From the NCBI GenBank assembly GCA_902561325.1, contig CACEOL010000009.1:1-37724 (forward strand): 37,724 bases of DNA, in the 5' to 3' direction. The stretch's first letter is position 1. Every line of letters begins with the position of its first letter. A program made the translations under genes and the position numbers. Positions 2,241 to 19,199 of the stretch are shown here, piece after piece. The stretch comes from an uncultured SAR86 cluster bacterium (GTDB taxonomy: Bacteria; Pseudomonadota; Gammaproteobacteria; Magnimaribacterales; AG-339-G14). The notes under the pieces were generated by a model. That model saw only the letters and a program-made list of their open reading frames with translations, had not been told where the DNA came from and ran no database searches.

Positions 2241-2257
2241 CGACACAATTTGTCGCG
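2241..2257. promoter_or_regulatory. Operator-like palindrome, site 1, with -10 box at 2236-2231
   Basis: CGACACAATTTGTCGC has arms CGACA/TGTCG around a centre at 2248. It matches site 2 (8952-8967) at 14 of 16 positions. On the minus strand it is followed by TAGAAT (2236-2231), a plausible -10 for the 2188-845 genes, so a bound protein would sit between -35 and -10 as a repressor does. On the plus strand it ends four bases before the GTG at 2261. A separate inverted repeat, GAATAG-ATT-CTATTC (2225-2239), abuts it. The identity of the binding protein is inference; the WYL protein at 7737-8735 is the obvious candidate. Confidence 0.6.
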
Positions 2258-2260
2258 TCT

Positions 2261-2479
2261 GTGACTAAAAATGAATCTATGAATGAAAAGGACCGACCAC
2301 TTTCTGAACTTTCTGAGGGAGAATATCAAGAAACTCTTCGTGAAATTAGTGAACGTCTGGGGTTAAAAATACTCCCTGAGGATCACCCCATTTATCAAGA
2401 ACCACCAACGATAATTCTAAATCCTTTTACAAAAAATGATTCTAAGGAAGAGGTAGATGACGAACAAAATTCAGAATAA
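2261..2479 (+). CDS. Small acidic protein of unknown function
   Basis: This protein has 72 residues from a GTG at 2261, or 66 from an in-frame ATG at 2279. It is very acidic and polar, with a helical middle (LSEGEYQETLREISERLGL) and a Pro-rich part (PEDHPIYQEPPTI), and ends in an acidic tail. It has no signal peptide, membrane segment or known family. Neither start has a clear Shine-Dalgarno, and the operator-like palindrome covers the region just before the GTG. It is the first gene of a plus-strand run that continues 12 bases later with the 204-residue gene. Confidence 0.5.
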   Translation: MTKNESMNEKDRPLSELSEGEYQETLREISERLGLKILPEDHPIYQEPPTIILNPFTKNDSKEEVDDEQNSE

Positions 2480-2491
2480 CCGTTTTCTCCT

Positions 2492-3106
2492 ATGGTTAAA
2501 TTCCTCCTGGTCAATGACTGGGAGGTCCTAACCTTGGATTGGGTTTACGAACTTTGGAAGATACTCAAAGAGCAGCGAGAAAATGGAGTTGAAGACTCTA
2601 TTAAAACTTGGAGCTTGAATAACAAGATGATTGTTAATGAAGATCAGGAGTATGCACGAATCTTAGAAGCTTGGCATAAGAAAAACCTTTGGTACGGCGT
2701 TGACTACGAGATGACAGAAGCAGCTCTTAGTTACCACAACAACATATTGAATAGTTATTTGATAGGTTTTGATGAAAAATGCCCTGAGTACCTTGAGATG
2801 ATAGACGCTTTTATGAAAGGTACTTTTTTTGACTTTTTTTACACCAAAGAATTTGCCTATTGGATTAAAAACGAGGATCCCGAGGAGCCTTATTACGAGA
2901 AAGATACTTTATATTTCAAGAGACAAGGTAAATATGGGATTGTAACTTCTGAACATTACCAATTATCTATGGGCGGAACTATCGAAGCTCTTGACGAATG
3001 GCATAGGGTCAAAGATAAGGAAATTTATTTGATCAGATATCGACCCATTCAAAACTGTGGCGACTTCCCGCCCGTAAAGAATTTTGTGGAAAAACTTCGA
3101 CATTAA
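2492..3106 (+). CDS. Hypothetical protein with GGxxExxxxW motif
   Basis: This 204-residue soluble protein is rich in Tyr, Trp, Glu and Asp. Its N-terminal two thirds appear helical. Residues 135-180 (around YYEKDTLYF and EHYQLSMGGTIEALDEW) resemble the C-terminal part of the 102-residue protein at 1050-1358 and, more weakly, the 65-residue protein at 8732-8929. That recurring element suggests a shared small domain in this locus. No catalytic motif is visible and I do not recognise a family. It follows the small acidic gene at 2261-2479 and precedes the twin-arginine-like membrane protein. Confidence 0.65.
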   Translation: MVKFLLVNDWEVLTLDWVYELWKILKEQRENGVEDSIKTWSLNNKMIVNEDQEYARILEAWHKKNLWYGVDYEMTEAALSYHNNILNSYLIGFDEKCPEYLEMIDAFMKGTFFDFFYTKEFAYWIKNEDPEEPYYEKDTLYFKRQGKYGIVTSEHYQLSMGGTIEALDEWHRVKDKEIYLIRYRPIQNCGDFPPVKNFVEKLRH

Positions 3107-3152
3107 AACAATTTAGGAAGTAAAAATAATAATATATTATTTGAGATTAATT

Positions 3153-3485
3153 ATGGTTGATATTTCGAGAAGAAAATTTATAAAACAAACTCTTAAATTT
3201 TCAGTAGCTACAGGTACTGCTCTCGCTACATTTCCAATTACAAACCTTTACCAAGAAAGGATTCTGCCTAAGATAAATGAACAATATCCAGACTTGAAAG
3301 ATAATTTAGATTTAACTTTCATAGATTCTCTTACTCCTCATTTAATTATTAGTTCATCTGTAATGTCTTTTATTATGATGTATGCGGATCAATTGGAGAC
3401 TTTTGCCATTTTGCTTATCGCAGCTTTATCTCTTCTCTTCTTAGATATACCTTTATCAGAATATGCCTTAAATATTTTTTTGTAG
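3153..3485 (+). CDS. Small protein with twin-arginine-like leader and C-terminal hydrophobic segments
   Basis: I take the ATG at 3153 (110 residues), because the protein then starts MVDISRRKFIKQ, a good match to the Tat motif S-R-R-x-F-L/I-K, followed by a hydrophobic stretch (VATGTALATFPI). An in-frame TTG at 3141 would only add four residues. A mainly polar middle is followed by two hydrophobic segments (about 63-78 and 84-110, LIISSSVMSFIMMY and FAILLIAALSLLFLDI), so the protein is membrane-bound. TatABC are encoded at 33634-34720. A folded periplasmic cofactor domain, usual for Tat substrates, is absent, so the motif may be coincidental. It lies nine bases before the nuclease gene. Confidence 0.5.
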   Translation: MVDISRRKFIKQTLKFSVATGTALATFPITNLYQERILPKINEQYPDLKDNLDLTFIDSLTPHLIISSSVMSFIMMYADQLETFAILLIAALSLLFLDIPLSEYALNIFL

Positions 3486-3494
3486 TTATTCTGA

Positions 3495-4943
3495 ATGAAA
3501 AGATTTTCTCCGACAGATCTTATGAGATTTTTTATATCGCCATATGAATCATGGGCAACAAGATATAGCTCTGAAGTTGACTCAACAATTTTTATAAAAG
3601 ATCCCGAAAACGAATTTCTATCGATGGCAAAAAGAAAGGGCGATGATCACGAATATAAAATACTTAAACGGTATCAAGATGAAAAATTATCAATCAAAAT
3701 AATTCCAGATTCAGGTCCAAGAGAAGAAAGGCTCGATGCGACTAAACAAGCAATGTTGGATGGATTGGACATAATTTACCAAGGAAGTTTAGAAAACGAA
3801 TTGTTTTTTGGGAAAACAGACTTTTTGGTAAAAACGCATGGCGATTCAAATCTTGGCAATTACAGTTACGAAATACTTGACGCAAAGTTAGCCAGAAGGG
3901 CAAAAGCGGAACATATTATTCAACTATCTTGTTATCGAGAGTTATTAGAAAACATTCAAGGCAAAGTTAGTGATAGTGCTTCTTTGATATATGGTGACGG
4001 AGAACTAGAGAGATTCAATCTAGATAATTACGATAGTTTTTACAAAGCTTTAAGAGAAAAATTTTTTAATTTTCACGCAAGCTTTAATCCCGATAATATC
4101 CCAGATCCAGCATCGTATGATGAATGGGGCATTTATTCTGAATATGCAAAAAATATAATTCAGAAAACCAACAATTTATCCATTATCGCAGGCATAAGAA
4201 AAAGCCAAATAAAAAAACTTAAAGAAGCCAATATTAATTCTTGTGAGGAACTTATCAATTCAGAAATTAGCAAAGAAACTAAAATAAATCCTAAAGTTTT
4301 GGATCGCTTGAAATTACAAGCAAAACATCAATTGAAATCTAAGAAAAATTCTAAATTGAGTTTTGAGGTGCTTCCCCATTCAGACAGAGGCCTCGGTTTA
4401 AAAGGTCTGCCAGAAAAAAGTCTAAACGATGTTTATTTTGATTTAGAAAGCAATACATTCACTGTACCTATGACACTTCACTACTTGTGGGGCTTTGCCT
4501 ATGAAAAAAACTCTCACAAAAAATTTGATTGCCTCTGGGCTCACACTCAAGAAGATATGAAAGAGGTCTTTGAATCTTTTGTAGATATGTTGATGGACAA
4601 ATTTTCCGAAGATCCAAAAATGCATGTCTTTCATTATGGAGCCTTCGAGGTGACAACCTTAAAAACTTTAGCTGGGTACTTTTCCTCAAAGTCAGATGAA
4701 ATAGACCATTTATTGAGAAATAATGTTTTTATAGACTTATTTAAGCTGGTGAAACAATCTTTTTGTATTGGTTCAACTGGATATGGCCTCAAAGATATAG
4801 AGCCTATATTTAGGAATGAAAGGACAGAAGAAGTGACTGGAGGAACTGAATCAATGATTCAGTATGAATTATGGTCAGCAAATAATGACGAATCAAAAGA
4901 TGAAACTGATAGCGAGCTATTGAAAAAACATCTGGGAATATAA
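3495..4943 (+). CDS. TM0106-family RecB-like nuclease / RNase H-like protein, N-terminal half of a frameshifted gene
   Basis: These 482 residues are the first part of a larger gene that continues at 4984-6831. The RecB-type nuclease domain shows GDDHE (H52, E53), GKTDFL (D109), YEILDAK (D129, K131) and QLSCYREL (Q143, Y147). A helix-hairpin-helix-like part follows (about 230-275). Then comes a YprB-type RNase H-like domain with FDLES (D316, E318), HYGAFE (E385) and D414. The last expected motif, YNxxDC, is absent from this frame but present just beyond as EYNREDC in the +1 frame. The family normally joins these domains to an SF1 helicase in a protein of about 1,100 residues that is thought to process nucleic acid. 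The six residues after K477 are off-frame. Confidence 0.85.
   Translation: MKRFSPTDLMRFFISPYESWATRYSSEVDSTIFIKDPENEFLSMAKRKGDDHEYKILKRYQDEKLSIKIIPDSGPREERLDATKQAMLDGLDIIYQGSLENELFFGKTDFLVKTHGDSNLGNYSYEILDAKLARRAKAEHIIQLSCYRELLENIQGKVSDSASLIYGDGELERFNLDNYDSFYKALREKFFNFHASFNPDNIPDPASYDEWGIYSEYAKNIIQKTNNLSIIAGIRKSQIKKLKEANINSCEELINSEISKETKINPKVLDRLKLQAKHQLKSKKNSKLSFEVLPHSDRGLGLKGLPEKSLNDVYFDLESNTFTVPMTLHYLWGFAYEKNSHKKFDCLWAHTQEDMKEVFESFVDMLMDKFSEDPKMHVFHYGAFEVTTLKTLAGYFSSKSDEIDHLLRNNVFIDLFKLVKQSFCIGSTGYGLKDIEPIFRNERTEEVTGGTESMIQYELWSANNDESKDETDSELLKKHLGI
4923..4928 (+). other. Frameshift site: A6 run with one extra A
   Basis: Reading TTG AAA AAA CAT leads to a stop at 4941-4943. Removing one A gives L-K-N-I-W-E-Y-N-R-E-D-C and joins the helicase frame without a stop. 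The repaired gene (3495-6831) would be 1,112 codons, the usual family length. The restored EYNREDC is a conserved motif of this family, so the break is inside a functional domain and not at a natural domain border. Confidence 0.85.
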
Positions 4944-4983
4944 CCGAGAGGATTGTTTTTCACTCATAGATCTTGTTGACTGG

Positions 4984-6831
4984 ATGAGATCAGAACAAAT
5001 TAAAAATGGGTTTGCCTATGAAAATCTTTATGAGGAGGAAAAAAGTTCTGTTGTTGAATTTATAACTCAAGAGATTAATTCAAAATATTCCGCCAAAGGA
5101 AAGCAACCTTATTTGCAACTCTTGTTGGACTTATGTTTATACCATCGAAGAGAAGCCAAGCCTTCATGGTGGAGATATTTTGATATGTTAGCTTCAGAAG
5201 ATGACGAGCTAGAAATTGAATTAGATTGCCTAGCCAACGCTATTTATACAGGAAAAAAATTCAAAGAAAAGAAATCCATGGTTTACGAATATAAATTCAA
5301 TAATTTACAAGAATCAAAAATAAAAGAAGCCGACAGAGTAAGAATAAAATCAGATCCCACCATAAACTGTGAAGTCTTTTCCATGGATTTAGATGCAGGC
5401 AAGTTTGAGCTTAAATCAACTTCTGATTTGCCAAATGAAGTATCTCTTATTCTTTTTAAGCATGTAAGTGCAAAAATAATAGAGAACTCAATTGAGTCAA
5501 TCACAAATAGGTACTACCAAAAAGGGTATATCAAGCCTTGTTTAAAAACTTTTTTTGACAAAAAAAGACCCACCTTAGTAAATGATTCTGAGCAAAAAAA
5601 TGATCTAACAAAGTGGGGAGAAAATATACTTGAGTCTTCTAAGAAAGTTATCTCTGCTATGAAAGATAGCACTCTTTGCTTACAAGGACCTCCTGGTTCT
5701 GGCAAGACTTATGTTTGTGCAAGAGTGATTGCAGACTTAATCAAAAAAGGTAAAAAAATAGGTATCGCATCTAACAGCCACAAAGCTATAAATAACGTCA
5801 TAGAAGAGTTGATCTTGGTTATGGATGATCAAAAAATCGATGGAAATATTGCTAAAGTGGATAGAACTTCAGAGGAAGAAAAACTTTACAAAAATAAGCG
5901 AATTACTATATTTAAGTCCATCGAGACTGTCCATTTAAATGAAGACTTAGCAGTAGTTGGCGGCACCGCTTGGGCATTTTCTAATCAGGCAATACAAGAT
6001 GAACTCGATTATTTATTTGTTGATGAAGCAGGGCAGGTAAGCGTGGCCAATTTAGTTGGCATGTCTCAATCTACTTCCAACATTGTTTTAATTGGCGATC
6101 AAATGCAATTGGCACAACCCTCTCAAGGAATTCATCCGGGAGATTCAGGAACTTCTTGCCTATCTTATTTTCTTGGAGACAAACCAACTATTCCCAATGA
6201 TATTGGAATTCTTTTATCTGGAACGCATAGATTGCATCCAAACATATGTGAATTTATTTCAAGAGAAGTTTATGAGGGTAGGCTTGTGTCAGAAGGTGAT
6301 GCTCCATTAAGAAAACTAAAATTGCCCAAAGATCATAATTTGATTAGTAAAGAATCAGGAATTATGCATATCCCTGCTTCTCATGTTGCAAATAGTCAGG
6401 CAAGTATTGAAGAGATAGAGATAATTTCAAATTTGATTGAAGAACTCTTAACTTGCGAAAAATTTGATCCTAAAAAAAACTCTTTTACGAAATTATCTAA
6501 GAAAGATATTTTAGTAGTTGCTCCGTACAATCACCAGGTTCGTTCCTTAAAAGGAAAATTTAATAGCCAAATAGAAGTTGGAACGGTTGACAAATTTCAA
6601 GGAAGAGAAGCTGAGGTTGTAATTGTATCTATGACCTCGAGCGATATTTTTGAAGCTCCAAGGGGCATAGACTTTCTCATGGAAAAGAACCGTCTTAATG
6701 TTGCAGTAACCAGGGCCAAAACTTTGGCAATTATTGTGGGTAGTGAAGATTTGCATCAACCTGAGGCCAAATCAATCAAAAATATGGAAATCCAGAATTT
6801 CTATATTTCTTTGATTAAACATGCTTCTTAA
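4984..6831 (+). CDS. SF1 DNA/RNA helicase (Dna2/Upf1-like), C-terminal half of the frameshifted TM0106-type gene
   Basis: These 615 residues from an ATG at 4984 hold a complete SF1 helicase core. Walker A is QGPPGSGKT (234-242), motif Ia is IASNSHKAINNVI, motif II is VDEAG (347-350), motif III is GDQMQLAQPSQG, motif IV is GTHRLHPN, motif V is VGTVDKFQGREAEVV and motif VI is RLNVAVTRAK (570-579). The first 220 residues are the helicase N-terminal region typical of TM0106-type fusions. In the intact gene this is one polypeptide with the nuclease at 3495-4943. The ATG is probably internal (the upstream in-frame residues WEYNREDCFSLIDLVDW are conserved), but the helicase could be made alone. It converges on the rmuC operon 15 bases away. 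Confidence 0.85.
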   Translation: MRSEQIKNGFAYENLYEEEKSSVVEFITQEINSKYSAKGKQPYLQLLLDLCLYHRREAKPSWWRYFDMLASEDDELEIELDCLANAIYTGKKFKEKKSMVYEYKFNNLQESKIKEADRVRIKSDPTINCEVFSMDLDAGKFELKSTSDLPNEVSLILFKHVSAKIIENSIESITNRYYQKGYIKPCLKTFFDKKRPTLVNDSEQKNDLTKWGENILESSKKVISAMKDSTLCLQGPPGSGKTYVCARVIADLIKKGKKIGIASNSHKAINNVIEELILVMDDQKIDGNIAKVDRTSEEEKLYKNKRITIFKSIETVHLNEDLAVVGGTAWAFSNQAIQDELDYLFVDEAGQVSVANLVGMSQSTSNIVLIGDQMQLAQPSQGIHPGDSGTSCLSYFLGDKPTIPNDIGILLSGTHRLHPNICEFISREVYEGRLVSEGDAPLRKLKLPKDHNLISKESGIMHIPASHVANSQASIEEIEIISNLIEELLTCEKFDPKKNSFTKLSKKDILVVAPYNHQVRSLKGKFNSQIEVGTVDKFQGREAEVVIVSMTSSDIFEAPRGIDFLMEKNRLNVAVTRAKTLAIIVGSEDLHQPEAKSIKNMEIQNFYISLIKHAS

Positions 6832-6846
6832 GATAGCAAGATTTTG

Positions 6847-7740
6847 TTATTGATCTTCATCATTTAAGCTATCTGCCCCTCTATCAAGGGTCCTGCCCAA
6901 AACGTTAACTCTGGTTTGAAGACTATTCACGTCTTTCAAAGCGCCTTCCAATTTCTTTAGAACCTTTTCGGTACTGGAATCAAAGCTTTTAAATTCTTTT
7001 TGAATGTTTCTAACCACTGTGGCAACTTTCTCTGCGGTCTGATTGAGTTTAAGATAATGATGACCCACACGGATTGTATCTAAGAAGGCAGCTAAAGTAT
7101 TGGGTCCTTGAATCAAGATTTTCTTATCGGTCAAACACTCTTGGCGCAAATCTTCAATTTTATCAACTAGATCGATGAGTTTTTCTGAGGCGATATACAA
7201 AACAGCATAATTGGTGGTTGAATTTTGCAAAATGTATTTTTCTGAGATGTCTTCGGCATCTCTCAAAATCGCGGTGCGTAAATCCCGAAGGACAGTCTGC
7301 CGATCGGTATCTGTTCCAGCCTCTTGATAGGAACGGTATTGGCCGGAATAAAATTTTGAATCAATGGGTACTAAAATTTCTTCAGCAGTAACAACTGCAC
7401 AATCCACGCGATCAGCTGTTTGGGGATTGATTTGATGCTGAAAATGATAGCTGCCATCGGGCATAATATCTTGCACAACCGATTCCAAATTCCACTCCGC
7501 CAACCTTCCAGTAGTGACATTGCCACCCAAAAATCTATTCAACTCATTTATTGGGGTGGTAACCGAAGTCAGATCCTGGCCGATTTTATTGATATCTTCA
7601 GAGAAAGCTTTGAACTTCTCATCCAAAATCGAATTTTGATTTTCTCCTTGAAGATTTTGGTCACGTAATTTTAAGAAAATATAGATGACCAGACCCAAGG
7701 TACCTAAAGAAATTAATAGGACTAAAAGAATTAAACTCAT
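6847..7740 (-). CDS. rmuC: RmuC-family DNA recombination protein
   Basis: This 297-residue protein has an N-terminal membrane anchor (residues 2-23), a coiled-coil-prone linker and then the RmuC nuclease-like domain. The domain shows LAEWNLESVVQDI, VDCAVVTAEEILVPIDSKF and ILIQGPNTLAAFLDTIRVG, followed by a C-terminal helical region. RmuC limits inversions and other rearrangements in E. coli and belongs to the PD-(D/E)XK-like group. The protein is shorter than E. coli RmuC (about 475 residues), with a reduced coiled coil. Its ATG overlaps the stop of the WYL regulator gene (ATGA), so the two are translationally coupled, an unusual partnership for rmuC. Confidence 0.85.
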   Translation of the reverse strand: MSLILLVLLISLGTLGLVIYIFLKLRDQNLQGENQNSILDEKFKAFSEDINKIGQDLTSVTTPINELNRFLGGNVTTGRLAEWNLESVVQDIMPDGSYHFQHQINPQTADRVDCAVVTAEEILVPIDSKFYSGQYRSYQEAGTDTDRQTVLRDLRTAILRDAEDISEKYILQNSTTNYAVLYIASEKLIDLVDKIEDLRQECLTDKKILIQGPNTLAAFLDTIRVGHHYLKLNQTAEKVATVVRNIQKEFKSFDSSTEKVLKKLEGALKDVNSLQTRVNVLGRTLDRGADSLNDEDQ

Positions 7741-8735
7741 TGATAAATTGACCTCATTTTTTTGGTTAAGGAAATAAATTTGTTTCTTAATTTTTTTGGT
7801 TTCATAACTTCGACATCACTGCCAAAACTCATCAGCCATTGCTCAAATTGCAAGGTATCTGGCACCCTTGCTTTGATGAGTAATTTATCGCCTCCCATTT
7901 CGGTAACTTTTTGAGAGCCATTTAAAGGTGTTTCTAGCAGATGAAAGGCCATGGTCTTATCAAAAACCGCCTCAAATGTGTAAAGATCATTGCTGTAGGC
8001 GTAACTCAAATTGTTTTTGTGAATGAATTCATCGATATCAAATCCTTTTGGCTCTTTGACTTCAGCTTCTAAGAGTTCTACTTTTTCAAATCTCTGCAAA
8101 GGGAGATATCTTGGGTTGATAGGATCTTCATCCATCATGCAAATTAAGTAATGCATACTTCCTTTCAAAACAATTCCCAACGGATGCATGTGGCGTTCGT
8201 TCCCTACTTTTTCGCCTCGCTTTCTATAGAGTGCTTTGATTTGTATACCTTCATAAACTGCTCTATAAATTCTTTGGCGCAAATCCAAATTTACCTTAGG
8301 TTCTTTGAATCTCATATTTTCTGATACAACCTTTACGCGTTTGCGCCATCTTGCCAATTTGGTTTTTTCACTACCCACTAAGACTTTTTCAGCTCGAGAA
8401 AAAAAATCTTCCACTCTCTTAAAATTAGCTTTCGGCATCAAAGGCTCTAAATATTGAGCAGCCAATGAAAAGGTGAGAGCTTGAATGGGGTCCATAGCAG
8501 GTGACTGGTAATCTTGAGCATCTTTTTCCCAACTCCAACCAAAAGGGCTATTGCGCTCATCACTTATAATGGGAAAACCTCTAGATAATTCTTGTAAATC
8601 TCTCTGAATGGTTCTTAACGAAGCTTCGTAACCAGCATCATTCAAAGCATCTCTGATATTAGCTGTAGTCACTTTCTGCGGATAACGCGGAATCAGCTGC
8701 AGCATATTCATTTGTCTTAAAATCGTATCGCTCAT
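7737..8735 (-). CDS. WYL-domain transcriptional regulator
   Basis: This 332-residue protein has a winged helix-turn-helix at residues 1-65 (ending ASLRTIQRDLQELSRGFPI, the recognition part of DeoR/YafY-type regulators). A WYL domain follows (about 160-240; IKALYRKRGE, HMHPLGIVLKGSMHYLI), then a C-terminal WCX-like domain (about 255-332). WYL regulators often sense nucleic acid or nucleotide ligands, and several control anti-phage systems (BrxR, CapW). The gene overlaps both neighbours by four bases (8732-8735 and 7737-7740), forming a tight operon 65 aa-WYL-rmuC. Its promoter region holds the palindrome at 8950-8968, so self-regulation is likely. Control of the second site at 2241 is inferred. 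Confidence 0.88.
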   Translation of the reverse strand: MSDTILRQMNMLQLIPRYPQKVTTANIRDALNDAGYEASLRTIQRDLQELSRGFPIISDERNSPFGWSWEKDAQDYQSPAMDPIQALTFSLAAQYLEPLMPKANFKRVEDFFSRAEKVLVGSEKTKLARWRKRVKVVSENMRFKEPKVNLDLRQRIYRAVYEGIQIKALYRKRGEKVGNERHMHPLGIVLKGSMHYLICMMDEDPINPRYLPLQRFEKVELLEAEVKEPKGFDIDEFIHKNNLSYAYSNDLYTFEAVFDKTMAFHLLETPLNGSQKVTEMGGDKLLIKARVPDTLQFEQWLMSFGSDVEVMKPKKLRNKFISLTKKMRSIYQ

Positions 8736-8929
8736 GATGTGTCATCCTCGGTTTGCGCTTTTGACCAGGATCTAAAAACTTCTGGATCACCGCCTTTTTC
8801 TACATGAAACTCTAAAGTAGTTTGCAATTTAGTACCCTTAACTTTGAAGTAAATACCTGTGCTTAAGTCTTTAATGGTTCTACCTTCGGTAAAAATTTGT
8901 TTGATAATGTCTTCGTTTTCTTTTTCCAT
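8732..8929 (-). CDS. Small protein with GGxxExxxxW motif, first gene of the WYL operon
   Basis: This 65-residue soluble protein has IYFKVKGTKLQTTLEFHVEK followed by GGDPEVFRSW. The last part resembles the C-termini of the 102-residue (1050-1358) and 204-residue (2492-3106) proteins. Its stop overlaps the WYL start, so it is co-translated with the regulator. The ATG is exactly six bases after a perfect TATAAT (8941-8936), so the mRNA probably begins at or next to the start codon. Function unknown. Linkage to the regulator could suggest a ligand-sensing or accessory role, but nothing in the sequence shows it. Confidence 0.65.
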   Translation of the reverse strand: MEKENEDIIKQIFTEGRTIKDLSTGIYFKVKGTKLQTTLEFHVEKGGDPEVFRSWSKAQTEDDTS

Positions 8930-8935
8930 TTATAC

Positions 8936-8941
8936 ATTATA
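8936..8941 (-). promoter_or_regulatory. -10 box for the 65 aa-WYL-rmuC operon
   Basis: TATAAT on the minus strand is followed by six bases and the ATG at 8929, predicting a leaderless transcript. Its upstream edge is 18 bases from the centre of the palindrome at 8959. The -35 position falls inside the palindrome, and no good -35 hexamer is present. Confidence 0.55.
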
Positions 8942-8949
8942 GTCAGCAA

Positions 8950-8968
8950 AGCGACAAGATTTGTCGCT
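8950..8968. promoter_or_regulatory. Operator-like palindrome, site 2
   Basis: AGCGACAAGATTTGTCGCT has perfect 8-base arms around a GAT spacer centred on 8959. It sits between divergent promoters, with each -10 box (8941 and 8977 edges) exactly 18 bases from the centre, so one bound dimer would cover both -35 regions. The core matches site 1 at 2241-2256 at 14 of 16 positions. It is probably the binding site of the WYL regulator encoded next to it; this is inferred from position. Confidence 0.7.
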
Positions 8969-8976
8969 AAGATGAA

Positions 8977-8982
8977 TACAAT
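8977..8982 (+). promoter_or_regulatory. -10 box for the small-protein gene pair at 9003-9508
   Basis: TACAAT on the plus strand lies 20 bases before the ATG at 9003. It mirrors the minus-strand TATAAT around the palindrome. The -35 region lies inside the palindrome and is poor. Confidence 0.4.
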
Positions 8983-9002: not shown

Positions 9003-9188
9003 ATGGACGATCACATGAAAATTTATTTGGAATTATTAAGCAAAATGTCAGACGAACAATTTGAGGCCCACAAAAGCATCATCGAAGAAATTCATTCTTC
9101 TGGAGGCATCTTATCGCAAGATGAGCAATTCAATCTGGCTTTGAAAATGCTAAATAATTTTACGCAAAGCAATGGGAGGCTGCATTGA
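9003..9188 (+). CDS. Small protein, SD(D/E)QFE family, copy 2
   Basis: This 61-residue protein aligns with the 63-residue protein at 845-1036 over most of its length (YLELLSKMSDEQFEAHKSII; EQFNLALKML). It has no membrane segment or signal peptide and appears helical. The stop TGA overlaps the TTG start of the next gene, so the two are translated together. It is divergent from the WYL operon across the shared palindrome. Family and function unknown; a second copy near the same kind of operator argues that it is a functional gene. Confidence 0.7.
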   Translation: MDDHMKIYLELLSKMSDEQFEAHKSIIEEIHSSGGILSQDEQFNLALKMLNNFTQSNGRLH

Positions 9189-9508
9189 AATTTTCTAGCA
9201 TTGATAAACGCTCTTTAAAAGAATCTATTTTCGATACTGCAATTGCCTTGCCTATCGCTTGGAGCATGTCCTATGTAACTTTGGTGGCCATGTATGCACT
9301 GGAAGTTTCTAATGCTTTTTTGATTTCTTTAGCACAAACAATTGTTTTAACAGTCGTTTCGGTATTTAGAAAATACACAATTCGTACGAAGTTTAAAAAA
9401 GCTGAAGATAATTTGATGAAAAGTCAGAATAGCGATGAATTAACTATAGATATTGACCATCTTAATTTGGCGCAAAGACAAGAGAAATATCCCCGCGCAA
9501 CAAATTAA
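9185..9508 (+). CDS. Small two-helix membrane protein, TTG start
   Basis: This 107-residue protein starts at a TTG that overlaps the preceding TGA (TTGA) and has GGGAGG five bases upstream, which supports this start. Residues 14-34 and 43-60 are hydrophobic helices, followed by a basic segment (FRKYTIRTKFKK) and a polar tail. The pattern E-S-x-x-D / two helices / VSVFRKYxIRxxF resembles a small membrane-protein family common in marine phages and bacteria (the DUF7220 type), recalled from memory. The last 69 bases overlap the convergent dsbB gene, so the true C-terminal tail may matter little. Function unknown. Confidence 0.65.
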   Translation: MKFSSIDKRSLKESIFDTAIALPIAWSMSYVTLVAMYALEVSNAFLISLAQTIVLTVVSVFRKYTIRTKFKKAEDNLMKSQNSDELTIDIDHLNLAQRQEKYPRATN

Positions 9509-9934
9509 AACCCAGCCTGGAATGGATATGCCGAGAAGACTCCACATCACTTCGGCACAATTCCCATCACCTATAAACAATTGAATCAATGCATCAGAAA
9601 CAAAATTGTTATCTAACAAATAATTCAAATCAGGCCCACAAGATGGGACTCGATCTGGCGGTAAAGATTGCAGGTACAAATGTCTGATGGCAGAAGCACC
9701 GCCTGCGGCACTAAAAAAAGCGGTCAGTCCCAAATAAAATTTGTCTATTTTGTTATGCAAAATGCCAATTAGAGCTGCAGCTCCAGCTAAAGCAACAGCT
9801 ATTCTTTGCACGATACACATGGGACAGGGTTCGAGCCCAAGTTGGTATTCCATGTAAAATGCAGTAGCAATTAAACCGATGCAAGCAAGCAGAATGAAAG
9901 TTAAAACAACACGCGTTTCTTGCAGCAAATTCAT
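9440..9934 (-). CDS. dsbB: Disulfide bond formation protein DsbB
   Basis: This 164-residue inner-membrane protein has four hydrophobic helices (about 10-28, 45-60, 67-85 and 140-158). The first periplasmic loop has the redox pair CPMC (C37-C40 region, EPCPMCIVQRIA). The second has the two other cysteines (PSCGPDL and DGNCAEV). It re-oxidises DsbA and passes electrons to quinone; ubiB and ubiE for ubiquinone synthesis and dsbA (14934-15557) are in the same window. Its gene ends inside the convergent small membrane-protein gene. A TATACT box six bases before the ATG suggests a leaderless mRNA. Confidence 0.95.
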   Translation of the reverse strand: MNLLQETRVVLTFILLACIGLIATAFYMEYQLGLEPCPMCIVQRIAVALAGAAALIGILHNKIDKFYLGLTAFFSAAGGASAIRHLYLQSLPPDRVPSCGPDLNYLLDNNFVSDALIQLFIGDGNCAEVMWSLLGISIPGWVLICCAGIFLLSLRQIKMVNIYS

Positions 9935-9969: not shown

Positions 9970-12675
9970 ATGGCAAAACCAGAAAGCGCATCAGATACCG
10001 ACTCCGTCATTCTCATCGATGGGTCATCATATGTATACCGAGCGTACCATGCTTTACCGCCCTTAACGACTTCCTCTGGTCAGCCAACTGGTGCGGTAAG
10101 AGGGGTGACCACCATGGTGATGCGCATCTTAGAAGACCATCCAAATTCACCCATTGGTATGATCTTCGATGCCAAAGGCGATACTTTTCGCCACGACATG
10201 TATAAAGAATACAAAGCCAATCGTCCTCCGATGCCAGACGATTTGCGTCCACAAATTCAACCCATTTACGACATTGTTGATGCCTTGGGCATAAAGATTT
10301 TTGTAGTCGATAACGTTGAGGCCGATGATGTGATTGGCACACTTGCCAAGCAAGCTGAAGAAAAGGGTATTTCGACTGTGATTTCCACTGGCGATAAAGA
10401 TCTGGCACAACTCGTAACCAAAAATATCAAATTGGTGAATACCATGACCAATGAAGTTCTGGATCAAAAAGGGGTTGAGAAAAAGTTTGGCGTAACCCCA
10501 GAACAAATCATCGATTACTTGGCACTTGTTGGGGACACCTCGGATAACATTCCAGGAGTAAATAAAGTCGGTCCCAAAACTGCCGTTAATTGGTTAAGCA
10601 AATATGGAACGGTTGAAACCATCATTGAAAAATCTGAAGAAATTACCGGTAAGGTTGGCGAATACTTACGCGAAGGCATTGAGCAACTCAAACTCTCTCA
10701 ACAATTAACCACCATTAAAAAAGATGTCACTTTGGATTTTGGGATTGAGGATCTGGCAGTAGGGGAAACCGATCAAGCTAAATTGCACAAGTTATTTACC
10801 GAACTGGAATTTAAAACTTTATTAAAAAGTGCCGAAACAAAAAAAACTCCAGCAACAAGCTCCAACGGCTCTGCTTCAAAAGACAATTACCGTAGTGTTC
10901 TGACCAAAAAAGATTTGGATGGTCTTATTAAGGAGTTGAAAAAAGCCAAAGTTTTGGCTTTTGATACAGAAACAGACTCCTTGGATTTTACTCAAGCCAA
11001 TTTGGTCGGCTTATCAGTTGCAACAGATGAAGACAACGCTTACTACATTCCGGTAGGTCACGATTACGAAGGTGCGCCTAAGCAGCTCGATCGAGACGAG
11101 GTTTTAAAAAAACTCAAACCAATCATTGAAAAGACTCCTTTGATTGGCCAACACCTAAAATTCGATCGCAACGTTTTAGCAAATTACGACATCCATTTGA
11201 ATTCTATTGAAAACGACACCATGTTGATGTCTTACGTCTATGATCCAACTGCGACCCGTCATAACTTGGATGCCATGGCGAGTCATTATTTAAATGTCAA
11301 AACCACAACTTTTGAAGATGTTGCTGGTAAGGGCGTCAAACAACTTACTTTCAATCAGATACCTTTGGAAAAAGCGAGTGACTATGCAGCAGAAGATGCG
11401 GATATCACTTTCCGTTGCTATTCCCATTTAAAACCAGCTTTAGCAAAGACGCCTTCTTTGGAAAAAGTTTTGCATGAAATTGAATTGCCTTTGGTGCCGG
11501 TGCTCTCCGATATGGAACAAGCAGGGACTTTAGTTAATGAAGAAGCTCTAAAAGTTCAATCCAACAATTTAGGACAACGCATCAGCGGGCTTGAAGAACA
11601 AGCTTATCGAGAAGCGGGTAAAGAATTCAACTTGGCTTCTACCAAAGATTTAAGGGCAATTTTCTTTGATGAGATGAAGTTGCCGGTCGTGAAAAAAACT
11701 CCTGGCGGCCAACCTTCTACCGATGAGTCGGTTTTACAAGAATTAGCCAATCATTATGAGTTACCAAAAATTTTATTGGAACACCGCACTTTGGCAAAAT
11801 TGAAAAGTACTTATACCGATAGTCTGCCGCAACAAATATCAAAAAAGACAGGTCGCGTGCATACTTCTTTTCACCAAGCCGTGACTTCAACTGGAAGGTT
11901 GTCTTCTGCCGATCCCAATTTGCAAAACATCCCAATCAAAACCGACGAGGGTAGACTTATTCGAACGGCTTTTGTTGCGCCCAAGGGCTATCAATTGCTA
12001 GCAGTTGATTATTCGCAAATTGAATTACGCATCATGGCACATCTTTCTGAAGATAAAGGTCTCATTACCGCATTCGAAAATGGTGAAGACATTCATTCTG
12101 TTACAGCTGCAGAGGTCTTTGCTGAACCAGGAGAGGAGGTCACTGCAGAACAACGTCGCGGAGCCAAAGCGATCAACTTCGGTTTGATTTATGGCATGTC
12201 AGCTTTTGGCTTGAGTAAAGCTTTGAATATTTCAAGACCCTTAGCAGCAGACTATATCGACTCATATTTTCACAAATATCCAAGCGTAAAATTGTATATG
12301 GAACGAACCAAGGAGCTAGCTAAAGAGAAAGGTTATGTTGAAACCTTTTTTGGCAGACGACTTTATTTACCGGGAATCCACAGCGGACGCAGTCGCATGG
12401 CTGCAGAGAGGGCAGCAATCAATGCGCCCATGCAAGGAACTGCTGCTGACATCATGAAAATTGCGATGATTGAAATTCACGAGTGGCTGGCCAAAGGTAA
12501 AGTTGATGCTCGGATGATTATGCAAGTTCACGATGAAGTGATTTTGGAGGTCAAAGATCAAGACGCTTCCAAAGTAGAACAAGAAGTTTCAAAAATCATG
12601 CAAGGTGCAGCGAAATTGAAAGTACCTTTGGAAGTTGAAAGCGGCCTAGCTTCCAATTGGGGTGAAGCTCATTGA
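9970..12675 (+). CDS. polA: DNA polymerase I
   Basis: This 901-residue protein has all three domains. The 5' nuclease spans about 8-285 (ILIDGSSYVYRAYHALPPL, VEADDVIGTLA, GDTSDNIPGV). The 3'-5' exonuclease spans about 310-500 with intact acidic residues (FDTETDSLDF, GQHLKFDRNVL, YAAEDADIT), so proofreading is expected. The polymerase has motif A VDYSQIELR, motif B RRGAKAINFGLIYGM and motif C QVHDEVILEV. It acts in DNA repair and Okazaki-fragment processing. Length is close to E. coli PolA (928). It is followed after five bases by the convergent dioxygenase gene; engB lies beyond, a common neighbour of polA in gammaproteobacteria. Confidence 0.98.
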   Translation: MAKPESASDTDSVILIDGSSYVYRAYHALPPLTTSSGQPTGAVRGVTTMVMRILEDHPNSPIGMIFDAKGDTFRHDMYKEYKANRPPMPDDLRPQIQPIYDIVDALGIKIFVVDNVEADDVIGTLAKQAEEKGISTVISTGDKDLAQLVTKNIKLVNTMTNEVLDQKGVEKKFGVTPEQIIDYLALVGDTSDNIPGVNKVGPKTAVNWLSKYGTVETIIEKSEEITGKVGEYLREGIEQLKLSQQLTTIKKDVTLDFGIEDLAVGETDQAKLHKLFTELEFKTLLKSAETKKTPATSSNGSASKDNYRSVLTKKDLDGLIKELKKAKVLAFDTETDSLDFTQANLVGLSVATDEDNAYYIPVGHDYEGAPKQLDRDEVLKKLKPIIEKTPLIGQHLKFDRNVLANYDIHLNSIENDTMLMSYVYDPTATRHNLDAMASHYLNVKTTTFEDVAGKGVKQLTFNQIPLEKASDYAAEDADITFRCYSHLKPALAKTPSLEKVLHEIELPLVPVLSDMEQAGTLVNEEALKVQSNNLGQRISGLEEQAYREAGKEFNLASTKDLRAIFFDEMKLPVVKKTPGGQPSTDESVLQELANHYELPKILLEHRTLAKLKSTYTDSLPQQISKKTGRVHTSFHQAVTSTGRLSSADPNLQNIPIKTDEGRLIRTAFVAPKGYQLLAVDYSQIELRIMAHLSEDKGLITAFENGEDIHSVTAAEVFAEPGEEVTAEQRRGAKAINFGLIYGMSAFGLSKALNISRPLAADYIDSYFHKYPSVKLYMERTKELAKEKGYVETFFGRRLYLPGIHSGRSRMAAERAAINAPMQGTAADIMKIAMIEIHEWLAKGKVDARMIMQVHDEVILEVKDQDASKVEQEVSKIMQGAAKLKVPLEVESGLASNWGEAH

Positions 12676-18146: not shown

Positions 18147-19199
18147 ATGGATGCGGAAAAACTCAGTCAATTAACTCAAAAAGTCATTGGTGATGCAGCA
18201 GGAGCAGTAGGACTGTTGCTGGCTTACATTGGTGACCAATCAAAAGTCTATACAACAATGGATGAATTAGGTCCTTCAACTGTAAAGGAAATTGCAGATA
18301 AAGCAGGTCTTGATGAACGTTACCTAAGAGAATTTCTCTCTTCAAATGCTGCCAATGGCTATGTAACTTACGAATCCGCGGAGGATAAATTTTCTCTTTC
18401 GCCAGAGCAAGCAGCTGTCTTTGCAAAAGATGGTGAGCCTACCTGTTTGCAAGGGTACTTCCAAGCAATTGTTGGTCAATACGCAGAGCACGAAAAAGCC
18501 GTGGAAACTTTTCAATCAGGAAAAGGCAGACCGTGGGGAGAACATCATCTGTGTTGTTTCTGTGGTACTGATAGGTTCTTCAGACCTGGTTATGTTGGCA
18601 ATTTAGTCAGCAATTGGATTCCATCTTTATCTGGAGTTGAAGATCAACTTAAAGCTGGCGCTAAAGTTGCCGACATTGGTTGTGGGCTAGGCTCAACGAC
18701 AATTATCATGGCTCAGACTTATCCAAATTCAACAATTCATGGATATGATTTTCACGGCCCATCCATTGAAGAGGCTAGTGCTAGGGCAAAGGAACTGGGA
18801 TTAACCAATATTGAGTTTCATGTGTCAGATGCTAGAGATATTCCAGATAATGGTTATGACTTTGCTTGTATTTTTGATGCTCTGCATGATATGGGTGATC
18901 CAGTAGGTGTTGCCAATCATATTAAAAATGTACTTTCCGAAGAAGGAACCTTTATGCTAGTTGAACCTGCAGCAGCAGATAATTTGGAAGACAACCTAAA
19001 TACTTTTGGCGGACTGGCCTATGGATTTTCAACAATTGTTTGTGTTCCTACCTCTAGAGCCCAAGACGTTGGTCTGTGTTTAGGAGCTCAAGCTGGACCA
19101 AAAAGATTAACGGAGGTCTTAAATTCTGCAGGTTTTGATCATGTTCGAGAATCAGCAAGAACTGGAACGAATATGGTTTTTGAGGTCAAACAAGCTTAA
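18147..19199 (+). CDS. Class I SAM-dependent methyltransferase with N-terminal winged-helix domain (Rv2258c-like)
   Basis: This 350-residue protein has an N-terminal winged-helix domain (about 1-95: TVKEIADKAGLDERYLREFL), a linker, and a Rossmann methyltransferase domain (about 165-330) with the SAM site VADIGCGLGSTTIIMA. GYDFHG, SDARDIP and DALHDMGDP follow. The architecture matches the Rv2258c group of small-molecule methyltransferases. A Cys-rich patch (HHLCCFCGTDRFF) near residue 135 is notable. A good Shine-Dalgarno (GGAGA) precedes the ATG. Its stop overlaps the hflX start (TAATG). Substrate unknown. Confidence 0.85.
   Translation: MDAEKLSQLTQKVIGDAAGAVGLLLAYIGDQSKVYTTMDELGPSTVKEIADKAGLDERYLREFLSSNAANGYVTYESAEDKFSLSPEQAAVFAKDGEPTCLQGYFQAIVGQYAEHEKAVETFQSGKGRPWGEHHLCCFCGTDRFFRPGYVGNLVSNWIPSLSGVEDQLKAGAKVADIGCGLGSTTIIMAQTYPNSTIHGYDFHGPSIEEASARAKELGLTNIEFHVSDARDIPDNGYDFACIFDALHDMGDPVGVANHIKNVLSEEGTFMLVEPAAADNLEDNLNTFGGLAYGFSTIVCVPTSRAQDVGLCLGAQAGPKRLTEVLNSAGFDHVRESARTGTNMVFEVKQA

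Follow-up and report, generated by a model that had tools for sequence, protein, structure and literature searches.

Two nearly identical palindromes lie 6.7 kb apart on contig CACEOL010000009.1 of an uncultured SAR86 cluster bacterium, and the question they raise is which protein binds them and what it controls. The contig, all 37,724 nucleotides (nt) of which are called the window here, is one whole contig of assembly GCA_902561325.1 (1.17 Mb, 25 contigs, 86.7% complete). The complete assembly was searched, and it was compared with 40 genomes of the same SAR86 family and with 203 genomes of the order. The favoured reading, to which a probability of about 75% is given, is that the palindromes are operators of a DriD-like WYL protein encoded at 7737-8735, and that this protein is an activator triggered by single-stranded DNA (ssDNA) which switches on a repair and defence island. 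Taken part by part, both sites are very probably docking sites of one regulator and bracket a swappable island, while it is probable that the regulator switches the island on and that it responds to ssDNA.

Copy A, ACGACACAATTTGTCGC, occupies positions 2240-2256 and copy B, GCGACAAGATTTGTCGC, positions 8951-8967. They share the 15-base core CGACA-N5-TGTCG, found at 2241-2255 and 8952-8966, respectively. Copy B is a perfect 7-3-7 inverted repeat, and copy A differs from its 17-base pattern at two positions. The original prediction, which had compared the 16-base stretches at 2241-2256 and 8952-8967, correctly counted 14 of 16 identical positions and placed both palindromes between divergent genes: the flanking open reading frames (ORFs) start at 2188 (-) and 2279 (+) around site A and at 8929 (-) and 9003 (+) around site B. 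It had also found no third copy by eye, and the exact core indeed occurs only twice in the whole 1.17 Mb assembly, both times within the window. The same pattern read in reverse was used as a backward control for the chance level; its exact form is absent from the window genome and is found as one copy each in 14 of the 40 family genomes. When one mismatch is allowed, the window genome contains 8 further matches against 9 for the backward control, which puts them at chance level. Seven of the eight were inspected; five lie within ORFs of 215-863 amino acids (aa), while the remaining two are in no ORF of at least 90 aa and resemble rRNA genes by eye. The eighth (18671-18685) is within a 350-aa ORF at 18147-19199. 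A wider regulon in the window genome was rejected on these grounds.

The gene for the WYL regulator lies leftward of site B on the minus strand, and thus in the second unit, where it had been placed by the original prediction. It encodes an N-terminal helix-turn-helix domain, a WYL domain (PF13280) and a WCX domain (PF25583), and no other WYL-domain gene was found in the window genome. The linkage between this gene and the palindrome can be read directly from the genomes. A WYL gene is present in 11 of the 40 family genomes, and in all 11 the palindrome is found upstream of it; in genome G035 (G numbers denote genomes and L numbers loci) the distance is 442 bp because small ORFs intervene. The exact core is present in 11/11 WYL-positive and 2/29 WYL-negative family genomes, and in the latter two it lies within ORFs of 296 and 1039 aa. 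Across the order the 17-base form RCGACAN5TGTCGY is found in 20/29 WYL-positive and 9/174 WYL-negative genomes, while its backward control is found in 14 of 203, one of them WYL-positive. The corresponding Fisher p values are 3.4e-8 for the family and 2.9e-14 for the order, although they are not strict probabilities, since the genomes are related and kinship was left uncorrected.

The linkage extends beyond the family and depends on the spacing of the half-sites. With up to one mismatch, the core is found within 400 bp upstream of 10/11 WYL genes of the family, 11/19 others of the order and 10/23 from the rest of the class, giving 31/53 (23 of 25 matches from the rest of the class were used, two partial second matches being excluded). 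The same test inside the WYL genes gives 0/53, and spacers of 3, 4, 6 and 7 bases give 1, 0, 0 and 0 upstream matches versus 31 for the spacer of 5. Neither of the two outcomes that the original prediction had named as speaking against it was thus observed: unrelated genes do not commonly bear the motif, of which the genome has two exact copies, and it is not absent from orthologous promoters, the core being present at 11/11 WYL loci of the family, 11/19 of the rest of the order and 10/23 of the rest of the class. The survey was widened to 76 WYL genes by adding 23 of 26 loci from the phylum (three partial matches were excluded) and scanning 460 bp upstream; 41 genes have the core, 6 have a variant of it and 29 have neither. 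Of the eight among the 19 other WYL genes of the order that lack the normal core, five have the variant and three have none.

In nine genomes of the order the 17-base motif occurs without a WYL match. Four of them (G353, G357, G367, and G422) have one site each, within an ORF. In G365 the site (L172, 5293) faces a gene of the PD-(D/E)XK cluster f5, between two partly repeated gene blocks. The last four (G428, G429, G432, and G436) have the site at lexA, and their assemblies are 51-79% complete; in G432 the motif recurs next to an exonuclease I-like gene and, close to the end of a contig, beside WYL-flanking genes. The WYL-positive family genomes contain 23 exact sites, of which 22 are intergenic in the sense that they lie outside mechanically called ORFs of at least 150 aa, a definition that leaves some sites within shorter ORFs or within potential extensions at the 5' side (e.g., L048 3588 and L059 5837). 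Nineteen of the 22 lie no more than about 13 kb from the WYL gene, two are on a short contig of G021 that bears the same far-end genes as the other islands, and one is elsewhere in G029. Each island of the family relatives has 1-3 exact sites; in other genera such sites are present at lexA and nuclease genes, too. An equivalent of copy A is found at the far end in G037 and G039. The suggestion of a two-locus regulon fits the window genome, with the qualification that the loci form opposite ends of a single accessory island. In G391 six operator copies or near-copies (0-1 mismatch) are found within 13 kb (L155, 2975-15511) around WYL, MoxR/VWA, and nuclease genes. No relative of the WYL regulator was found on viral contigs.

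The position of the palindrome relative to the promoters is also conserved in SAR86. At site B, TATAAT is found at 8936-8941 (-) and TACAAT at 8977-8982 (+), each 10 nt beyond the core and starting 18 bases from the centre at 8959, as had been noted; these are the predicted -10 boxes of a leftward and a rightward promoter, and by eye there is no good -35 box. The candidates at site A are TAAAAA and AAAAAT at gaps 10 and 11 rightward (2266-2272, +) and TATTCT at gap 11 leftward (2224-2229, -), where the gap is the number of nt from the end of the 15-base core to the start of the hexamer. The TAGAAT that was originally noted beside site A exists on the minus strand (2231-2236), but it is only 4 nt from the core and hence off the conserved distance. 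That distance was established using flanks from loci L048-L062 and L150-L184 and from the window, a -10-like hexamer being one that matches TATAAT in at least four of six positions. Among 79 gene-facing flanks of exact SAR86 sites such a hexamer is found at gap 11 in 55, and at any other gap in at most 22. After dropping flanks at least 60% alike over 40 nt, 48 of 85 were kept, and 35 of these have it at gap 11, while the best other gap has 14 and the shuffles gave a mean of 6.7 and a maximum of 16 (2000 shuffles). L158 and L183 were treated as coding in the 79-flank count and kept in the non-redundant one. Gap 10 or 11 is found in 41/48 flanks, and at this distance the palindrome overlaps the -35 region. 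Judging from three printed promoters, gap 11 would correspond to the DriD register; the bapE site of the DriD regulon departs from the core at 5 of 10 positions and so matches it poorly.

PMC12340889 gives ATACGAC-N7-GTCGTAT as the sequence recognised by the Caulobacter WYL activator DriD. The half-sites and spacing of both window sites are those of the DriD core, CGAC-N7-GTCG, and the same is true for 11/11 WYL loci of the family. The full form is found at another SAR86 site (L154, 8102). Among solved proteins DriD is also the closest match, by sequence profile as well as by fold. A profile of the 11 WYL proteins retrieves five sequences from the PDB (E 4e-9 to 2e-8); four are named DriD (7tzv, 9cu3, 9pfq, and 8tp8) and the fifth, 7u02, has the same aligned residues as these. 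The next matches are arginine repressors only (E 0.04-0.5), and with E values of up to 1 allowed, no CapW or BrxR chain was matched. In a Foldseek search with the AF2 model, DriD takes ranks 1-8 with a full-length match, followed by PafBC, BrxR (E 1.6e-7), and CapW (E 2.4e-7). Pfam assigns the WYL and WCX domains, and helices are modelled, at low confidence, at the expected position of the three-helix bundle. Arg209 and Arg215 are invariant in the 11 aligned proteins and align to arginines in DriD, which is suggestive of ssDNA binding by the WYL domain. Further likenesses are the overlap of site and -35 region, with the -10 box at a constant distance, the bidirectional promoter beside the regulator gene, and the presence of nucleases among the targets. 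The mycobacterial PafBC and SiwR share the WYL/WCX architecture and the connection to the DNA-damage response, and the SiwR palindrome is located between -35 and -10. Their operators and regulons are different, however, and PafBC is described in PMC12340889 as a heterodimer that touches the promoter, at -24, only jointly with RNA polymerase.

What the sites enclose differs from genome to genome. Site B faces leftward the overlapping operon of a 65-aa protein, the WYL regulator and rmuC, and rightward two small genes, while site A faces the gene of a 66-aa protein and, further on, a nuclease-helicase. In 9/11 family genomes the WYL gene is within a few small genes of a dsbB-like gene; in G029 and G039 it is about 7 and about 10 kb away. 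Six of nine WYL-negative genus-mates have a dsbB match, and these six loci (L260-L265) were read. Their gene order is polA, dsbB, rmuC, one of them having a 194-aa gene between dsbB and rmuC. After rmuC follow genes like the 155- and 339-aa genes beyond the far operator of G037, sometimes with others in between. No palindrome with one mismatch or less is found at this empty locus in the six genomes. The adjacency of dsbB and rmuC in genomes without the WYL gene indicates that rmuC is a core gene, and that the WYL gene and the operator came in between the two; the island thus parts rmuC from dsbB and places it behind the WYL gene.

The cargo between the operators includes PsyrTA (G037), DISARM DrmA/DrmB (G021), PIF1- and UvrD/GajB-like helicases (G019), a restriction enzyme with an SNF2 helicase and an MzaB-like ATPase (G023), a cytosine methylase (G038), and a CARF_2OG-like protein (G035). 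The nuclease-helicase is the cargo of the window genome and G039 and is found broken, in several pieces, in G029. In the Shield system, RmuC domains have been recruited to the defence against phages (PMC10270631). In other SAR86 families the WYL loci border matches to DrmA, SspC, SWIM_XIII, and PDC-S37/Hhe as well as nuclease genes, among them exonuclease I-like and Cas4/RecB-like PD-(D/E)XK genes.

Some WYL genes have a changed operator. The variant CGTCA-N5-TGACG is found upstream of six WYL genes, five from SAR86 and one from another gammaproteobacterium (WYL genes L131-L135 and L074; sites L159, L161, L162, L164, and L165). At position 42, in what is presumably the recognition helix, all six proteins have M (five) or N (one), while 39 of the 41 proteins with the normal core have T or S, the other two having Q and K. 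Since the five SAR86 cases belong to one clade, this represents at most two independent events. Operator letters and residue 42 may possibly constitute a natural specificity switch. In 10 non-redundant flanks of variant sites the -10-like hexamer is at gap 10 in 7, at gap 3 in 6, and at gap 11 in 1, and as gap 3 nearly equals gap 10 the spacing test is weak for the variant.

By analogy with DriD, the WYL domain of a homodimer would bind ssDNA arising from damage or phage attack. The loaded dimer would then bind the palindrome overlapping the -35 region and recruit RNA polymerase to promoters that, as judged by eye at site B, have a -10 box and no good -35 box. Site B would drive the operon of the 65-aa protein, the regulator and rmuC leftward and the genes of the 61-aa and DUF7220 proteins rightward, while site A would drive the genes of the 66-aa protein and the nuclease-helicase rightward. 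Together the two sites would switch on an accessory repair and defence island with a genome-specific cargo. Dimer binding, the ssDNA inducer, and polymerase recruitment are all inferred from this likeness. The original interpretation is supported as far as it saw one regulator's pair of sites; it had not recognised the operator as that of DriD, nor the geometry of the promoters or the defence cargo.

The same protein and sites could alternatively belong to a repressor of the CapW/BrxR type, which would block both divergent promoters when free of ligand and be released by ssDNA. Repression of defence islands by WYL proteins is well documented: CapW and BrxR stand beside diverse anti-phage systems and act at palindromes or inverted repeats at the promoter, and as far as the accessible literature goes the reported regulators of defence islands (CapW/BrxR, CapH+CapP, and CapK+CapS) are repressors released by ssDNA or damage. 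The cargo in SAR86 is defence-like, a site over -35 could equally block the polymerase, the -10 boxes TATAAT and TACAAT of site B look strong without an activator, and VIA scores tie CapW and BrxR with DriD. On the other hand, CapW sites overlap the -10 box (PMC9122588) and BrxR sites are reported just downstream of the promoter, whereas the SAR86 site overlaps -35 with the predicted -10 box 10-11 nt outside it in 41/48 flanks. A CapW-like geometry was rejected on this ground, and activation is favoured over repression. The sequence profile, which retrieves DriD and neither CapW nor BrxR, points the same way, as do the VIA alignments, which end at residues 238-245 of the model for BrxR and CapW but reach 323-332 for full-length DriD and PafBC. 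A repressor is considered unlikely, though it is a more serious contender than either of the following.

That another factor, e.g., LexA, binds the palindrome, and that the proximity of the WYL gene is guilt by association, is very improbable. Like the SOS operator, the palindrome would control DNA-repair genes; LexA is present in the window genome and in 167 of the 203 order genomes, and six genomes of two other SAR86 genera, four of them without a WYL match, have a WYL-type palindrome between the LexA box and the start of lexA. The LexA box is, however, another motif: in 30 of the 167 lexA loci that were examined, an exact CTGT-N8-ACAG box is found in 25 and one with a single mismatch in 5, and all six palindrome-bearing lexA promoters also have a box of their own. 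As SAR86 lexA promoters thus carry a separate box with a different sequence, identity with the LexA operator was rejected. LexA is moreover nearly universal while the palindrome follows the patchy WYL gene, and the operator form goes with residue 42 of the WYL protein. Mere coincidence between two short palindromes is the least credible explanation, and next to negligible. Motifs present in two copies are often coincidental when short, and a scan of the window with up to three mismatches, strands counted apart, gave 8 matches against 2.35 expected, a number reached in 2/100 shuffles. Yet the palindrome is kept at the orthologous promoters of 11/11 family loci, the match is specific for the spacing, exact copies are distributed as described, and their presence is linked to that of the WYL gene, and chance similarity was rejected for these reasons. 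The LexA and WYL circuits may touch in the two genera with the palindrome at lexA. The positions there are L175 5666, L176 4820, L178 4923, L181 1370, L182 4896, and L183 5497, and the gene on the opposite side of these palindromes encodes a 5'-nucleotidase.

Several observations weigh against a DriD-like activator or mark differences from DriD. In the Foldseek alignments only 15-19% of residues are identical to those of DriD, the AF2 model has low confidence (pLDDT averages 66 and is below 50 for residues 75-120, where the three-helix bundle is expected), and the VIA scores tie DriD, PafBC, CapW, and BrxR (Z 11.9-12.8). The window operators lack the outer ATA/TAT. The palindrome faces the WYL operon, so the SAR86 regulator is probably in its own regulon, unlike DriD, which according to PMC12340889 does not regulate driD. 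The swappable repair and defence cargo also differs from the DriD targets didA, bapE, recJ, and dnaG. With respect to the promoters, the -10 candidates at site A are weak, and the spacing is not visible at 15 other-class sites, where gap 11 is found in 1 (WYL direction) and 2 (other direction), or in the phylum flanks (3/14). The 29 of 76 WYL genes with no recognisable site must also be accounted for; 26 of them encode T or S at position 42, meaning that this residue alone does not predict the operator. The PADLOC and Pfam labels of the cargo are profile matches, and several cargo proteins have none; of 20 island and neighbouring proteins run through PADLOC, 6 had no match.

A broader scenario, more speculative and judged slightly less probable than even odds, would make the DriD-like regulator a portable controller. 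It would enter beside dsbB, bring the core gene rmuC under its own promoter, and bracket any defence or repair module between its operators, so that ssDNA switches the island on. Sister lineages would have put the operator at lexA and exonuclease promoters, and one lineage would have changed both operator and residue 42. Control of immune operons by ssDNA or damage is already known, as PMC13373217 describes, and the WYL proteins known to govern defence islands are repressors. A literature search, mostly without subscription papers, revealed neither a paper on a DriD-type operator in SAR86 nor one on DriD-type activators at defence islands. If the reading is correct, the readable operator of a DriD-type activator and its fixed -10 spacing would make damage-inducible defence genes of uncultured SAR86 predictable from DNA alone. 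The DriD operator code would then hold outside Caulobacter as well, and residue 42 and the operator would constitute a testable natural specificity switch.

The remaining genes of the window are arranged around the two sites as follows. Left of site B, the gene of the 65-aa protein (8732-8929, -) comes first and overlaps the start of the WYL gene; it has homologues in G035 and G036. The gene of the RmuC-family protein (6847-7740, -), the one that adjoins dsbB in the WYL-negative genus-mates, overlaps the WYL stop. Right of site B are a 61-aa ORF (9003-9188, +) and the gene of a DUF7220 protein (9185-9508, +), and the island is flanked by dsbB-like (9440-9934, -) and polA-like (9970-12675, +) genes, named by eye. 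Left of site A is the gene of a 236-aa protein without a Pfam match (1478-2188, -). Right of it, the gene of the 66-aa protein (2279-2479, +) is followed by those of a 204-aa protein without a Pfam match (2492-3106, +) and of a 114-aa protein (3141-3485, +), which looks membrane-like by eye, has no Pfam match, and has relatives in the G035 and G019 islands. The nuclease-helicase, at 3495-6831, is split in two frames, with the nuclease part (RNase_H_2) at 3495-4943 (+) and the SF1-type helicase part (AAA_11/AAA_12) at 4984-6831 (+). The two are fused in relatives, where a single ORF encodes 1114 aa in G039 (L048) and 1108 aa in L162, L164, and L165. The frame change between 4943 and 4984 is either real decay or an assembly error.

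The 66-aa protein contains the stretch LPEDHPIYQEPPTII and has no Pfam match. It belongs to a family of about 59-76 aa bearing LPxDHPxYxxPPT, found near the sites in seven loci and at opposite island ends in two genera. Besides the window member at 2279-2479, its relatives in six further loci are L048 10054-10284, L049 3856-4065, L050 4249-4449, L053 3856-4041, L055 16723-16908, and L056 3059-3238.

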